This document shows positions 2,095 through 8,378 of a stretch of 64,000 bases of DNA, one piece after another. The position numbers and the translations under genes were made by a program. Within the stretch, counting starts at the first letter, position 1; each line of letters opens with the position of its first letter. The notes below the pieces were generated by a model. That model saw only the letters and a program-made list of their open reading frames with translations, searched no databases and had not been told where the DNA came from. Source of the stretch: Lachnospiraceae bacterium (GTDB lineage Bacteria; Bacillota; Clostridia; Lachnospirales; Lachnospiraceae); the NCBI GenBank assembly GCA_029099805.1, contig JAQXOR010000127.1, forward strand, positions 1-64,000, read 5' to 3'.

Positions 2095-2221
2095 TTAGGG
2101 AAACGCTGATTAAAGCGTTTCCACGCCGAATTTGCGTAGCGAAGCTACAATTTCTACTGCAAATTCGTGCGATCCGCCGGAGGCTTCTAAGGAAGCACTG
2201 AATTAATCAGTGCTTCCTTAG
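2095..2221 (+). repeat. Copy A of a 127-bp palindromic MITE-like element
   Basis: Same 127-bp sequence as the reverse complement of 8252-8378 with about 6 differences by eye; terminal inverted repeats (TTAGGGAAACGCTGATTAA ... TTAATCAGTGCTTCCTTAG). Confidence 0.85.
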
Positions 2222-2259
2222 CATACACAATTATCAATGCTGCCATGAAAATTCCGATT

Positions 2260-2481
2260 TTACACACGCTTCTGCTTTCCAACAAACTGGAATCTTTCGT
2301 TCAATTCATTTCCTTCAGCATCAAAAAAAAAATACTCTGACGGAATAAGTAAGTTAATATTAAATTCGGGATTGAATATAATTGTATTGCTCATATGTAT
2401 CTTTATACCCTCCTTTAATCTCAATGGGATTGTTGCCCCATCTCCAACTGCGCGAAGAACACCAACAAGTTCATCATCATC
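2260..2481 (-). pseudogene. Gene remnant without a start codon at the expected position (DDDELVGVLRAVGDGATIPLRLKEGIKIHMSNTIIFNPEFNINLLIPSEYFFFDAEGNELNERFQFVGKQKRV*)
   Basis: Open, protein-like frame bounded upstream by TGA with no ATG near its start; not in the ORF track. Confidence 0.4.
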
Positions 2482-2509
2482 TCACAAATGCATACATTCC
2501 TTGGTCACT

Positions 2510-3199
2510 CTACCGCACCGGGCATAAAAAACCGGCATAATCAAACTGATACAAAAGCACCGGCTTTCCAAATAAATCCACCGTTTTTCCCTCTTCCTGA
2601 CCGGCGAGAATCTGCTTTGCCCCCTCAATCAGCTTCGGGATAAGGCTTGGTTCCACAGCCACCGTACCATGTGACGCATATACCGTATCAAACCGTCCCC
2701 CATAATCAGAAAGCTTTTCCAGACTGACAATATAATTCTGTATATTACGATGAGTTCCAAACATAAAAATCCGCCCGTCCTGTATGGAATCTCCACCAAT
2801 TAAAACTCTGTTATTTATATCCAATATTGCAATGCTTCCCGGTGTATGTCCAGGAATATCAATAATCTCCAGAGGTCTATCCCCTAAATCAATGACATCT
2901 CCTTGCCTAACCGGAATAATTGTACCCTTTTTACCACGAAAACGATAGTTTTCTTCTTCCTTCGGATGCATATAAAAGCTTTCAAAGGCTTCATTACCGG
3001 ATATGTGGTCAGAATCCGCATGTGTATTAATCAACTTCACAGGAAGGTTCGTAATACTCTCCGCAATCTCCTTTGCGTTCGGTGTCTGCATTCCGGTGTC
3101 AATGAGCAGCGCTTCCTTTGTTCCTGCCAATAAAAACATACGAACGCCGCCATCCTCGATTCTCCACGTGTTCCCGTTAATTTGAATGATTTCGTTCAT
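2510..3199 (-). CDS. MBL-fold metallo-hydrolase
   Basis: 229 aa; NTHADSDHISGNEAF (HxHxDH-type variant), DIPGHTPGSIAI. Confidence 0.85.
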   Translation of the reverse strand: MNEIIQINGNTWRIEDGGVRMFLLAGTKEALLIDTGMQTPNAKEIAESITNLPVKLINTHADSDHISGNEAFESFYMHPKEEENYRFRGKKGTIIPVRQGDVIDLGDRPLEIIDIPGHTPGSIAILDINNRVLIGGDSIQDGRIFMFGTHRNIQNYIVSLEKLSDYGGRFDTVYASHGTVAVEPSLIPKLIEGAKQILAGQEEGKTVDLFGKPVLLYQFDYAGFLCPVR

Positions 3200-3269
3200 T
3201 CTGCCCCTCCTATCTTTTCACAAAAAAACCATCACTTTCTATTTTCTATAAGCTATAAATTTTTTACAC

Positions 3270-5363
3270 TTATACAATCCGCTTAAACTTCTTCTCTATC
3301 TCCTGCTTTGACATAGAAATCGTAGTCGGCCGTCCGTGCGGACAATGATACGGGTTATCCAAAGTTAAAAGCAGGTCAATCATTGCCTTTGCTTCCGGCT
3401 CGGAAAGTACCTGATTTCCTTTCACTGCTGCCTTACAGGACATGGATGCCACCTTTTCCACTAACAGTTCCGGGCTGCCGTGGAGCTTTTCCGCTACCAG
3501 TTCATCCAAAAGCTGTAAAAACAGCTCTCCACCGGTGAGTCCGCATAAATCCGTAGGAACTCCTGTCACCTTATAATCTCTGCCGCCGAAATGCTCAAAT
3601 TCAAACCCAAGATGCCTAAGCACCTCTCCCTGCTCCTTTAACACCTCCTCCTCACGAATGGAAAGGCTTGCAATATAAGGCGGCGCAATCTGCTGGGTCA
3701 ACATCTCCTTATCGCGGATACGCTTCATCGTCTGTTCAAACAATATCTTCTCATGCGCCGCATGCTGGTCAATCATAAACAGCTGCCCGTCCATTTCAAT
3801 AAGCCAGTAGGTTAAAAACAGCTGTCCGATAATGCGGTATTCCTTTTTATTTTCGTCACTGAGAAGATTCGGAAGCTCCATTTGTTTCTGAACATAGACA
3901 GGCTCCTTCGGATGTTGTGCCGCCTCCTGCCTGAATTCCGGTTTCTCCGAAGGTTGTGCCTCGTACTGCTTGGCTTCCGATTTTTGCAGCTGCGGCAGTA
4001 TTGCCTGCCTGTCCTCTGATTCTGCCGTATCGTCCGGCTTCCTTACTTCCTTTATCTCTTCTTCCCTTGTGATGTCTTCATGCTCTACTTTTGTAGAATT
4101 CTGTTTTCTTTCGTCGCTTTTCCTGACCTCATATAGCGCGGCATCTTCCTTTACCATTACCGCTTCCACCGCAGAAGCATGATTTCCGGCTGTTTGCGTA
4201 TTCGCCATTTGAACCGGCTGTACAACCTGGTTACTTTGCTCCAACGGCTTCTTCTCTGCCTGCTGTGCCATTCGCCTTGTCTCAAACTGCTCCGGTTCTG
4301 CTTCCCTTTTCGGTAATACGACAGGTGTAGACTTCTCCTCTTTCCCGAATCCCACCTGCGGAATCATGTTTTTCCCGGCAAGAGTCTCCTTAACCGCATG
4401 GTAGACTGCGTAATACACCGCTTCACTGTCGGCGAAACGTACTTCTAACTTCGTCGGATGCACATTGACATCTAACATTGCCGTATCCATGGAAATATGT
4501 AATGCCGTAAACGGATACTTATGCTGCATCATATAGGAGCGGTATGCTTCCTCAATCGCCTTACTCACGACACTGCTTTTGATATACCGCCCATTAATAA
4601 AATAGTTCTCGTAATTGCGGTTTCCCCGGGATACAATCGGCTTACCGATAAATCCGGTCACCTGAATTCCCGCGCTTTCTTCGATATGCTTCACTTCCAG
4701 AAGATTTGCCGTAATTTCCCGACCGTAAATCTGATAAATAACCTCTTTTAAGTTGCCGTTTCCCGGCGTCTGCAATACAATTTTCCCGTTATTAATGAAC
4801 TTATAGGCAATCTCCGGACGGCTCAGTGCCATGCGCTGCATCAAATCGGAACAAAGCCCCGCTTCCGTCATAGCGGATTTCAGGAATTTTCGTCTGGCAG
4901 GCACATTATAAAACAGATTCCGAATTAAAAAGGTCGTACCGTCCGGGCATCCTGCCTCCTCCATCGTCTGCTCTGTGCCGCCTTCAATAACATATCTCGT
5001 TCCGACAAAGGAATCCTTCGTTTTCGTCACCAGCTCCACCTGTGCCACCGCGGAAATACTGGAAAGAGCCTCCCCACGAAAGCCGAGACTTCCTGCGGTC
5101 AGCAAATCCTCCACAGTCCGTATTTTACTGGTAGAATGACGCAAAAAAGCTGTTTTTACATCATCCGTGGCAATCCCGGAGCCGTTGTCCGTAATGCGAA
5201 CCAGACCGCTTCCGCCCTCTTTCAATTCCACAGTAATCATATTTGCACCGGCATCAATGGCGTTTTCCGTCAGCTCCTTTACTACGGAAGCCGGCCGTTC
5301 CACCACTTCACCCGCAGCGATCTTATCTATCGTATTTTTGTCAAGTAAGGCAATCTTCCCCAT
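3270..5363 (-). CDS. mutL: DNA mismatch repair endonuclease MutL
   Basis: 697 aa; GHKL motifs (NAIDAGA, DNGSGI, RGEALSSISAV), C-terminal CPHGRP. Confidence 0.97.
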   Translation of the reverse strand: MGKIALLDKNTIDKIAAGEVVERPASVVKELTENAIDAGANMITVELKEGGSGLVRITDNGSGIATDDVKTAFLRHSTSKIRTVEDLLTAGSLGFRGEALSSISAVAQVELVTKTKDSFVGTRYVIEGGTEQTMEEAGCPDGTTFLIRNLFYNVPARRKFLKSAMTEAGLCSDLMQRMALSRPEIAYKFINNGKIVLQTPGNGNLKEVIYQIYGREITANLLEVKHIEESAGIQVTGFIGKPIVSRGNRNYENYFINGRYIKSSVVSKAIEEAYRSYMMQHKYPFTALHISMDTAMLDVNVHPTKLEVRFADSEAVYYAVYHAVKETLAGKNMIPQVGFGKEEKSTPVVLPKREAEPEQFETRRMAQQAEKKPLEQSNQVVQPVQMANTQTAGNHASAVEAVMVKEDAALYEVRKSDERKQNSTKVEHEDITREEEIKEVRKPDDTAESEDRQAILPQLQKSEAKQYEAQPSEKPEFRQEAAQHPKEPVYVQKQMELPNLLSDENKKEYRIIGQLFLTYWLIEMDGQLFMIDQHAAHEKILFEQTMKRIRDKEMLTQQIAPPYIASLSIREEEVLKEQGEVLRHLGFEFEHFGGRDYKVTGVPTDLCGLTGGELFLQLLDELVAEKLHGSPELLVEKVASMSCKAAVKGNQVLSEPEAKAMIDLLLTLDNPYHCPHGRPTTISMSKQEIEKKFKRIV

Positions 5364-5452
5364 ATGCCTGCTCCTTCCATCAAATATCCATTCACATTTT
5401 TCCTGTCATTTCATCATTAAAAACGAACTACTCTGAATTTCCCCATTAATTT

Positions 5453-5482
5453 AGTATATACCATGACACATCACCCAGTCAA
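5453..5482 (-). promoter_or_regulatory. Sigma-A-type promoter for mutL (TTGACT-18-TATACT)
   Basis: -35 at 5482-5477 and -10 at 5458-5453 on the minus strand. Confidence 0.55.
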
Positions 5483-5483
5483 C

Positions 5484-5511
5484 AAAAATTGAGCCTTTGA
5501 CAAGGCTCAAT
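5484..5511 (-). terminator. Rho-independent terminator (TTGAGCC...GGCTCAATTTTTG)
   Basis: Stem-loop followed by a U tract, downstream of the 86-aa ORF. Confidence 0.65.
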
Positions 5512-5542
5512 CTCATCCCTCAGGTCAATTATTCTCTTCCTT

Positions 5543-5803
5543 TCAGGTGCATCCATTCTTCTCTTGTGATGGCAAAGACTTCTCCAGCTTTCCTTTTGAG
5601 TCCCATCTTGCCTGGGCACAGGCAAGACAAAATCCTCTGGTTCTGACATATGAACTTTTCTCACACAGCATCGCTATGAAATCATCAAACAAAGAGTAAT
5701 ACGCATCCGATTCCGCTGATTTTGCACCGATTTCCTTTGAAAATTCATATGCACATTTATCGTCCTTGTCTTTCAGCTTACTAATAATTTGATTTCTTTC
5801 CAT
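5543..5803 (-). pseudogene. Probably truncated SufBD/HEAT-repeat-like protein
   Basis: 86 aa; N-terminus (KLKDKDDKCAYEFSKEI...DDFIAMLCEKSSYVRTRG) resembles longer clostridial 'SufBD-like' proteins, but the frame ends early in an unrelated-looking tail. Confidence 0.4.
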
Positions 5804-5824
5804 ATCTGCACATTATCCCCCATT

Positions 5825-6886
5825 TTAGTCTGTATTCTTACGCAAATACTCAAAAATCAAATCTCCCCAGTCCGTATATCGTTCGCCGTTTTTCCGGAAC
5901 ATTGCCGGCTCCCATCCGTCGTCATACCAGCACGCAACCCAGCTGATTCCTTTTTCCTCCATAAGCTTCAGAAACGGAATTCCAAAGCTTTCCCTGTCAC
6001 CAATCAAATATTCGTGATCAGGCTCATACGGTTCACCGGGAGCGATATAGCCCCATTCTGTCATAATAATCGGAAGCTTATCCGACAATTTGTCCAGATT
6101 CTGTAATCCCTGCTTTCTATTCGGATATATATGCGCCGTATACATAATATTGTTCGTCTGCAAAGGCTGTTGATACCAATAGTTCAAATCATAAGAATAA
6201 TCAACTCCGCTGACAATAATGATTTGCTCTGCACTATAGCTCCGGATAATATCAATCAGCATAGTCGCATTTTCTGCCCATCTTTTGTGACTGATACCGG
6301 CAGGCTCATTATATAATTCAAATATTACATTTGGTACATCTCTAAAATAATTTGCTACCATATTCCAGAACTCTACAGAAAACTCTACCGGTTCTTTCTT
6401 TATCGTCGGCATTTCTTTGCTGGAAGCGTCTTCAATATTTCCGATAAAATGCATATCCAGAATCACATACTTATTGTTTTCCACTGCCCATCCGACAATC
6501 GGGTCCAAATACCTCCAAAGATAGTATTCATCATTTTCCCAATACTCAGGATGAATCGGAACACGTACCACATTTCCACAGCAGGCAAACATTTTATCAA
6601 AGTACTCTTTTGTAAAATCCCCCTCCAAATCAAGCTTTCTGGCATCCGGTATCATTACTCCCTGTAAAACAACCTGTTCTCCCTCTTCATTTACAAGAAT
6701 AGTATCCTTTACAGTTAATTTCTGTGCATAGGAGGCAACGCCCTCCGGCATCTCAAAGCATTCTTTCTTTTGCACCGGTAACGTCAGCTTACCTTTCCCT
6801 GTTATCGCAAGAAATAGTAAGAACGCAGTAAACAAACCTATAACGATTACTAAACCGATACAAAGTATTTTAAATTTCTTTCTCAT
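5825..6886 (-). CDS. Membrane-anchored glycoside hydrolase family 5 (cellulase-type)
   Basis: 353 aa; N-terminal TM segment; VIFELYNEPAG, MTEWGY, HPEYWEN. Confidence 0.85.
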   Translation of the reverse strand: MRKKFKILCIGLVIVIGLFTAFLLFLAITGKGKLTLPVQKKECFEMPEGVASYAQKLTVKDTILVNEEGEQVVLQGVMIPDARKLDLEGDFTKEYFDKMFACCGNVVRVPIHPEYWENDEYYLWRYLDPIVGWAVENNKYVILDMHFIGNIEDASSKEMPTIKKEPVEFSVEFWNMVANYFRDVPNVIFELYNEPAGISHKRWAENATMLIDIIRSYSAEQIIIVSGVDYSYDLNYWYQQPLQTNNIMYTAHIYPNRKQGLQNLDKLSDKLPIIMTEWGYIAPGEPYEPDHEYLIGDRESFGIPFLKLMEEKGISWVACWYDDGWEPAMFRKNGERYTDWGDLIFEYLRKNTD

Positions 6887-6977
6887 GCTTGTTCCTCCTA
6901 CAGTTCATAATAATTCCTGCAAGCATCGCCGTCGTAAGAATTAAGGATATCTAACAAAGGGTTGCATTTAAGGAAAT

Positions 6978-8159
6978 TTATTCATATGCCATTTCATATA
7001 TTTTCAGGATATCGTCATATCCCAGTGGTTTGTATCCGATTAATGTTCTCGACTTGTTTCTGGAACAGTCAAGTGCAAGCTTTTCGAGAGACTGTCTCTC
7101 AACCCCCAAAGACTTTAGATTTACAGGCATTCCAATCGAACAATAAAACTGTTCCTGCTGATTAATTGCCTTTTCCACCGTCTTTTCCGGATGTTCAAAG
7201 TCAATCTCCAGATTCCAGACATTATGTGCATATTGTAACCATCGGTTTATATTAGCTGAATAAACATACCTCGCCCAGCTGCACCAGATGGCGGCAAGAC
7301 CGGCACCGTGTGCTATATCAGGGTACCTTCCGGATACCTCATGCTCAAACTGATGTACTACGAGCTGGCATTCTCTTCCGCACTGTGTAAGTCCGTTATG
7401 CGCAAGAGAAGACGCCCACATCATATTGGCACGTGCTTCATAATTTTCCGGATTTTCCAGACAGTCAACTCCGGCCTTCATCACATTTTTTATAACAGCC
7501 TCCGCGATTGCATCCGTCAAATAGGTATCTTCCCCCGGACAAAAATACCGTTCTATTGTATGCATGGCAATATCAACAATTCCGCATGCCGTCTGATATG
7601 GATTCACAGTATAAGAAAGTTCAGGATTTTCAATTGCGAAATCCATTCTGTTATTGCTGCAATTATACCCTCGTTTTTCTCCGGTTTCACTGTTTGTAAT
7701 GACACAGGAATTTGACATTTCTGAGCCGGCTGCGGCAAGCGTTAAAATGGCACCTTTATGTAATGTCTTTTCAGGTGCACATTTTCCCAAAGAAAACTCC
7801 CAGACGTCTACATCGGGGTTTGCCGCCCCATTCGCAATATCCTTCGCAGAGTCCATGACAGAACCACCGCCAACAGCCAAAACAAAATCGACCCCTTCTC
7901 GTCTGCACAAAGCAATTCCTTCTCTCACAAGCTTCAGCTCCGGATTTGCCACAACGCCGCCTAACTCTACATAAGCAATGTTTTCCTCTTCCAGGCACTT
8001 CTTCACCCTGTCTAATAATCCACTTTCTTTTGCCGATTTTCCGCCATAATGAATCAAAACTTTACACGGGTGATACTCCGCAATAATCTTTCCAACCTTA
8101 TATTCTTCCCCTTTTCCAAAGTACACTTTCGTAGGTGTTTCATAAATAAAATTATTCAT
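6978..8159 (-). CDS. Iron-containing alcohol dehydrogenase (butanol dehydrogenase-like)
   Basis: VGGGSVMDSAKDIA, DIAHGAGLAAIW, HTIERYF; start placed at MNNFIYETPTKVYFGKG (the ORF track extends to 8201). Confidence 0.9.
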   Translation of the reverse strand: MNNFIYETPTKVYFGKGEEYKVGKIIAEYHPCKVLIHYGGKSAKESGLLDRVKKCLEEENIAYVELGGVVANPELKLVREGIALCRREGVDFVLAVGGGSVMDSAKDIANGAANPDVDVWEFSLGKCAPEKTLHKGAILTLAAAGSEMSNSCVITNSETGEKRGYNCSNNRMDFAIENPELSYTVNPYQTACGIVDIAMHTIERYFCPGEDTYLTDAIAEAVIKNVMKAGVDCLENPENYEARANMMWASSLAHNGLTQCGRECQLVVHQFEHEVSGRYPDIAHGAGLAAIWCSWARYVYSANINRWLQYAHNVWNLEIDFEHPEKTVEKAINQQEQFYCSIGMPVNLKSLGVERQSLEKLALDCSRNKSRTLIGYKPLGYDDILKIYEMAYE

Positions 8160-8251
8160 CTTATGTTCCCTCTCTTCTCTGTCACGCTGCTTGATACCCA
8201 TGCAAATAATCTATCAAATGTAAGCATACTCCCTCCCATAAATCATTTATT

Positions 8252-8378
8252 CTAGGGAAGCACTGATTAATTCATTGCTTCCTTAGTAGCCTCCGGCAGA
8301 TCGCACGAATTTGCAGTAGAAATTGTAGCTTCGCTACGCAAATTCGGCGCGGAAACGCTTTAATCAGCGTTTCCCTAG
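8252..8378 (-). repeat. Copy B of the 127-bp palindromic MITE-like element (inverted relative to copy A)
   Basis: Termini CTAGGGAAGCACTGATTAA ... TTAATCAGCGTTTCCCTAG; reverse complement matches copy A. Confidence 0.85.

Follow-up and report, generated by a model that had tools for sequence, protein, structure and literature searches.

A mobile repeat of Lachnospiraceae with terminal hairpins, most likely moved by an IS5-family transposase, and its apparently widespread structured core

The window analysed here, a 64,000-nucleotide stretch of DNA from a Lachnospiraceae bacterium, contains two short repeats in inverted orientation that each fold into a series of hairpins, and this locus raises the question of what these repeats are, how they came to be there and what maintains their structure. 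An earlier note on this DNA had placed two inverted 127-bp copies here with about six differences between them; the positions were as it had given them, and six mismatches were counted between the two 127-mers. A repeat search of the window returned a single inverted pair (137 nt, 93%). Both copies are intergenic and show no coding capacity, in agreement with the earlier description, whilst their extent had to be redrawn: the outer 4 bp on each side are a target duplication (TTAG/TTAG for copy 1, CTAG/CTAG for copy 2), and the element proper comprises the remaining 119 bp, GGAAAC...GCTTCC (Table 1). The proposed order of end hairpin, central part and second end hairpin was retained; the central part, previously taken for a cruciform, is better read as an inner GTAGC-GAA-GCTAC hairpin enclosed by an outer stem GCCGAATTTGC/GCAAATTCG(T)GC, with a bulge AATTTCTACT following on the 3' side. 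Relatives do not preserve the GTAG/CTAC pairing favoured by RNAfold. Folding, suggested by the earlier note as a check, gave -62.1 kcal/mol for the RNA, where shuffled sequences gave -31.4 (z = -9.2); DNA parameters gave -41.3 (z = -9.4), and in neither case do shuffled sequences come close to the observed value. The inner loop GCGAAGC (2139-2145 and its counterpart in copy 2), which we take to be an unusually stable DNA mini-hairpin, is replaced by GCAAAGC or GCGTAGC in relatives.

Table 1. Positions of the two window copies and their parts, and of the single end hairpins found elsewhere in the same genome (contig:position)
Feature	Location	Strand	Remark
Copy 1, left 4-bp target duplication TTAG	2095..2098	+	matches TTAG at 2218-2221
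Copy 1, 119-bp element	2099..2217	+	
Copy 1, end hairpin H1 GGAAACGCTGATTAAAGCGTTTCC	2099..2122	+	first 15 nt are the IS5-family TIR
Copy 1, central stem-loop H2	2124..2171	+	inner GTAGC-GAA-GCTAC hairpin, 3' TTTC bulge
Copy 1, core-model match	2124..2184	+	94.5 bits
Copy 1, conserved linker GTGCGATCCGCCGGAGGC	2167..2184	+	mini-hairpin TCC-GCC-GGA
Copy 1, end hairpin H3 GGAAGCACTGAATTAATCAGTGCTTCC	2191..2217	+	inner CTAA (2187-2190) pairs with outer TTAG, extending H3
Copy 1, right 4-bp target duplication TTAG	2218..2221	+	
Copy 2, target duplication CTAG	8252..8255	-	
Copy 2, 119-bp element, reverse orientation	8256..8374	-	H3 8256-8282, core 8289-8349, H1 8351-8374
Copy 2, target duplication CTAG	8375..8378	-	
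Single end hairpin	C81:39379		L074
Single end hairpin	C158:7678		L029
Single end hairpin	C95:8712		L072
Single end hairpin	C58:1484		L068
Single end hairpin	C69:924		L067
Single end hairpin	C102:4194		L073
Single end hairpin	C140:9444		L075
Single end hairpin	C33:18805		L069
Single end hairpin	C3:10009		L063

The earlier note had allowed that the family might dissolve, either for want of further copies or into one segmental duplication that includes the flanks. Instead, BLAST-type searches of the window's own genome (G000) returned 46 matches, comprising approximately 11 near-full copies, approximately 10 shortened copies and several single end hairpins, and eight of ten genomes of the same genus carry the element. 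Since these matches lie on many contigs and have unrelated flanks, the two window copies are not the pair left by a single duplication. That both inverted copies lie within 6 kb of each other might still be taken to indicate one segmental duplication or an assembly artefact, but the differing flanks, the presence of copies on many contigs and in most genomes of the genus, and the empty sites described below refute this, leaving it practically no probability. We compared the 4-mers on the two sides of 68 TIR-type copies, taken from the genus group of the window and 13 further genomes of the family: they match exactly in 36 copies, compared to 23 expected on reshuffling (p < 5e-5). Three insertion sites of G000 (copy 2 and those on contigs C67 and C140) are empty in a close relative, G008, whose flanks are 94-97% identical, and each retains one tetranucleotide; the cleanest reads GGTT-CTAA-ATCTTAC in G008 and CTAA-element-ATAA in G000. 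The site of copy 2 counts against the simplest account, as its tetranucleotide in G008 is CCGG instead of CTAG. An altered footprint might look like this after precise excision in G008, which would replace insertion in G000 as the origin of the empty sites; such an origin is nonetheless improbable, given the intact single CTAA at the C67 site and that three separate precise excisions are less simple than three insertions. Both readings mean that the element is mobile.

End hairpins without a core were found at nine loci of G000 (Table 1) as palindromes of 24-33 bp, often of the form CTAA...TTAG. We considered the single hairpin as the smallest mobile unit and did not adopt this: the hairpins on at least C95 and C102 are missing from the orthologous sites in G008, where insertion and deletion are indistinguishable and fit alike. 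Tens of bases from one empty site, G008 carries a 78-bp insertion relative to G000 (L148, contig C24 of G008) that contains AAGCTCCGGCGG and resembles the linker of the element.

In order to identify a partner that could supply the transposase, we searched G000 with the TIR pattern; on contig C3 it matched twice at a distance of 1222 bp, with a gene for a 338-aa transposase in between. This IS is complete (CTAG-GGAAACGCTGATTAATTC...TTAATCAGCGTTTCC-CTAG) and exhibits the same TIR as the element, GGAAACGCTGATTAA: the left end of the element is identical to it in 15 of 15 nt and the right end in 13 of 15. The protein is an IS5-family DDE transposase (NF033581, 285 bits, E = 5e-85; PF05598 and PF01609). 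Homologues with the same kind of TIR were found in G150 (70% identity; IS left end GGAAACACTGATTAA, CTAG/CTAG) and G155 (62% identity; IS left end GGAAACGCTGATTTA, CTAA/CTAA), which belong to two other genera and are both rich in element copies, a PyTAPu 4-bp duplication thus being present at three ISs in three genera. For IS5, the target is PyTAPu, with CTAG the commonest (PMC5493358). The earlier note had proposed a non-autonomous mobile or REP-like family; the first of these options is borne out by the many intergenic copies with conserved ends in G000 and its genus, the target duplications, the empty orthologous sites and now a transposase gene with the same ends.

At the level of sequence, TIRs in common with a resident IS, the 4-bp PyTAPu duplication and presence or absence at orthologous sites are thereby established, and the element has what characterises a MITE: it is short and non-coding, shares its TIRs with an autonomous element and is flanked by a target duplication. 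Because an IS with the same TIR resides in the genome and its homologues in two other genera exhibit PyTAPu duplications, elements with these ends (type I below) are most likely MITEs moved in trans by an IS5-family transposase. A resident or recently lost DDE transposase of this family would bind the TIRs in trans, excise or copy the element and insert it at CTAG, TTAG or TTAA. Several observations count against parts of this account: the C3 IS occupies the same locus in G000 and G008 and so gives no sign of present activity, G009 carries element copies with no transposase of the C3 kind detected, and the target letters, read in the orientation of the covariance model R1 described below, are nearly always TTAG or TTAA and never CTAA, contrary to what a simple PyTAPu target would lead one to expect. 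Approximately 1 kb from another MITE copy (L079), a fragment of an IS5-family transposase (L190, G003:C65:10231-10392; 54 aa, 89% identity) is a relic of the partner IS.

To analyse how far the element extends, a covariance model (R1) was built on an alignment (A1) of 35 copies from the window's genome and its relatives. R1 matches at least 64 of 397 Lachnospiraceae genomes, representing 61 genera (with up to eight scored places per genome), and approximately one sixth of the sampled genera of the family carry the core; in a class-wide sample used as specificity control, matches outside the family came from one genus only (three genomes). Distant members keep the order of parts, namely end hairpin, central stem-loop with inner hairpin and TTTCC bulge, linker (TGCG(C)ATCCNCCGGAGG, with its mini-hairpin) and end hairpin, yet the end hairpins are wholly different between subfamilies whilst the core persists. 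By these ends we provisionally sorted five types: type I with GGAAACGCTGATTAA and a PyTAPu duplication; type II with TATAGGAAACGTCATAATAA and TATAGTAAACGACAAAT; type III with CAAGAACGCC or CAAGTCTCGC combined with TTTAACTCAGTCGGGG, the right hairpin being larger; type IV with AGAGTTTCGC and a CCATAGG-type end, with a T-run after the hairpin; and type V, which takes in the multiple copies found in G089 along with other single cases. A core-only model (R2), built from the window's group alone, found the core in all 43 distant loci tested and in every type, and in the 64-kb window only the two known copies, with 94.5 and 91 bits, rose above noise, the next score being 14.9 bits. The homology of the core is therefore independent of the ends: judged by these models, the central stem-loop and linker are homologous across Lachnospiraceae between unrelated pairs of end hairpins, and thus the end modules are exchangeable and the core is the constant part. 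Tentatively, we suggest that the core with its linker GTGCGATCCGCCGGAGGC may be a functional module, an uncatalogued structured nucleic acid selected at the RNA or DNA level that has spread through the family as different transposons took it up between their terminal hairpins.

Multiple copies within one genome are often nearly identical (G155, G300, G305), and amplification has therefore been recent and local. In the searched genomes of types II-V, no relative of the C3 transposase was found at E <= 1e-30, and a search with the type II end pattern returned hairpins and no IS; candidate intervals for an IS with type II ends in G060, G397 and G076 were rejected, as they held single hairpins and ordinary genes only. 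Type II ends are heavily amplified in G076, with 92 pattern hits in a 3.9-Mb genome, both as composite elements and as single hairpins (e.g. C1:15246-15390). In G089, three near-identical copies in the same orientation and with similar short flanks lie within approximately 4 kb of contig C13 (L217:2763-2881, 5436-5554, 6886-7004), and a second element or core copy lies near another at L182:1501-1619 and adjacent sequence, L178:43-163 and L180:1435-1495.

The end hairpins that also occur singly, together with an inner CTAA-hairpin-TTAG arrangement that resembles guide, hairpin and cleavage site, recall REP/REPIN systems, in which hairpins are moved singly and paired by a RAYT (Y1 HUH) transposase. 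This origin is very improbable here: PF01797 was not found in G000, G008, G150, G155, G339 or even G076 with its many end hairpins, and most of the other tested type I genomes rich in copies lack it as well; at the Y1 loci inspected in types III-V, neither element copies on the flanks nor a core beside the Y1 genes were seen; and the transposase encoded by the IS that shares the TIR is of the DDE class. The REP-like option of the earlier note, in its strict RAYT-driven sense, is not supported, since no Y1 transposase was found in G000. REP, BIME and REPIN repeats share with the element their palindromic units, single and paired, but differ in that neither G000 nor most of the genomes richest in the element contain a RAYT. 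Long Y1-transposase-like genes with GGACATGTCC repeats were seen in G348 and G024 (L284:1172-2459, L285:1156-1186) and are possibly a separate RAYT/REP system.

Compared to other small repeats, the IS5-driven MITE described here combines an ordinary mechanism with an unusual cargo, the family-wide structured core with exchangeable ends. Like MITEs of the IS5 family (IS5 subgroup) it is short, non-coding and intergenic, with TIRs in common with a resident IS and a PyTAPu 4-bp duplication; unlike them, each TIR folds back on its own inverted copy, which yields a hairpin at either end, and what lies between is a conserved structured core instead of a recognisable IS remnant. As a rule, a bacterial MITE is what remains of one IS and is restricted to a genus. 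The bcr1 repeat of the Bacillus cereus group, an intergenic mobile repeat of approximately 150 bp with a conserved fold and target duplications, is alike in kind, but has another host group and another duplication (the likeness is one of description, not of sequence), and we are not aware that bcr1 combines one core with several unrelated end modules. ERIC (RU-1) of enterobacteria is likewise intergenic, palindromic and MITE-like, its 127 bp being a coincidence of length; its hosts are unrelated and it uses a TA target, so that at the level of description, not of sequence, the 4-bp PyTAPu duplication of our element speaks against an ERIC. RUP is linked to an IS630-type IS. Together with BOX and SPRITE it forms the small interspersed repeats of Streptococcus pneumoniae, which exhibit extensive secondary structure and are mostly confined to pneumococcus and S. 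mitis (PMC3049150), whereas the core described here spans approximately 60 genera with exchanged ends. By analogy, the element would appear to work most like BOX/RUP, bcr1 and ERIC. Searches of plasmid, phage and IMG/VR viral sequences gave no match to the element, and no such element in Lachnospiraceae was found described in the literature searched (most subscription journals lay outside the search); the core family is apparently undescribed. With several unrelated end pairs on one core, what is inherited as a unit looks to be the core and not the TIR, so that one can test whether small mobile repeats bring a selected payload with them.

In order to analyse what maintains the structure, base pair changes were compared. 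Within the genus group, 17 of 45 pairs show two-sided changes, a value reached by none of 500 shuffles (6 in shuffles, 3-7 in slid controls); in the broad set all 45 R1 pairs covary, although this alignment was fitted to the model and leans towards it. If one RNA strand were under selection, G-U pairs would be expected to outnumber A-C. Over the whole structure of the genus group, 94% of the pairs are Watson-Crick, with G-U in 26 and A-C in 23 cells; because these are nearly equal and the changes in the end hairpins, almost all of them Watson-Crick, are roughly strand-symmetric, these hairpins appear to be maintained at the DNA level. At some loci occupied in more than one species, both arms of the copies have changed, with several double changes in H3 (L081/L093) and, in L082/L097/L083, double changes that extend beyond the target duplication into host DNA. 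Transposition cannot produce such in-place changes at one locus; they fit template switching between the arms, or strong selection on the fold. Template switching has been proposed to create and maintain hairpins (PMC8794818). The end hairpins would thus be kept perfect mainly through replication template switching between arms, the core by selection on sequence and structure. The end hairpins provide many natural experiments on the maintenance of perfect palindromes, with concerted arm-to-arm changes as template switching predicts. Taken as a whole, an IS5-driven MITE with a structured core, exchangeable ends and DNA-level upkeep of its end hairpins is very probably the correct explanation.

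Within the core, the asymmetric bulge and the linker are retained, and G-U exceeds A-C on the R1 strand by 14 to 2 in the central stem and 23 to 3 overall (as counted in a model-fitted alignment), a hint that this strand is constrained as RNA. This conflicts with gene orientation in types II-V, where it is the opposite, non-R1 strand that is co-directional with the flanking genes (24:4; 13 of 14 genomes, p = 0.002, with a simple ORF caller). If the element were a mobile gene for a structured RNA, or a regulator acting as RNA (a terminator, an mRNA stabiliser or a small RNA), under selection at the transcript level, this would account for the strong covariation, the conserved single-stranded linker and bulge, this strand bias and, by eye, the T-run that follows the stem end in type IV. 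We regard this reading as rather unlikely: within the genus nearly all pairs are Watson-Crick and G-U is roughly as frequent as A-C, gene orientation in type I is without significance (27:16, p = 0.13), the window copies lack a T-run after their end hairpins, and there is no Rfam family, the window and 20 loci of distant members giving no relevant match at gathering or permissive thresholds. An intrinsic terminator at the element ends was likewise rejected for the window copies, whose end hairpins show no stem with T-run, the only terminator-like calls inside the element being the inner GTAGCGAAGCTAC hairpin. For the IS5-driven MITE, stable secondary structure in read-through transcripts is a plausible bystander effect. 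In G300, an unrelated TwoAYGGAY RNA (L186:1839-1997; RF01731, 65 bits) lies a few hundred bases away from one of the type III copies.
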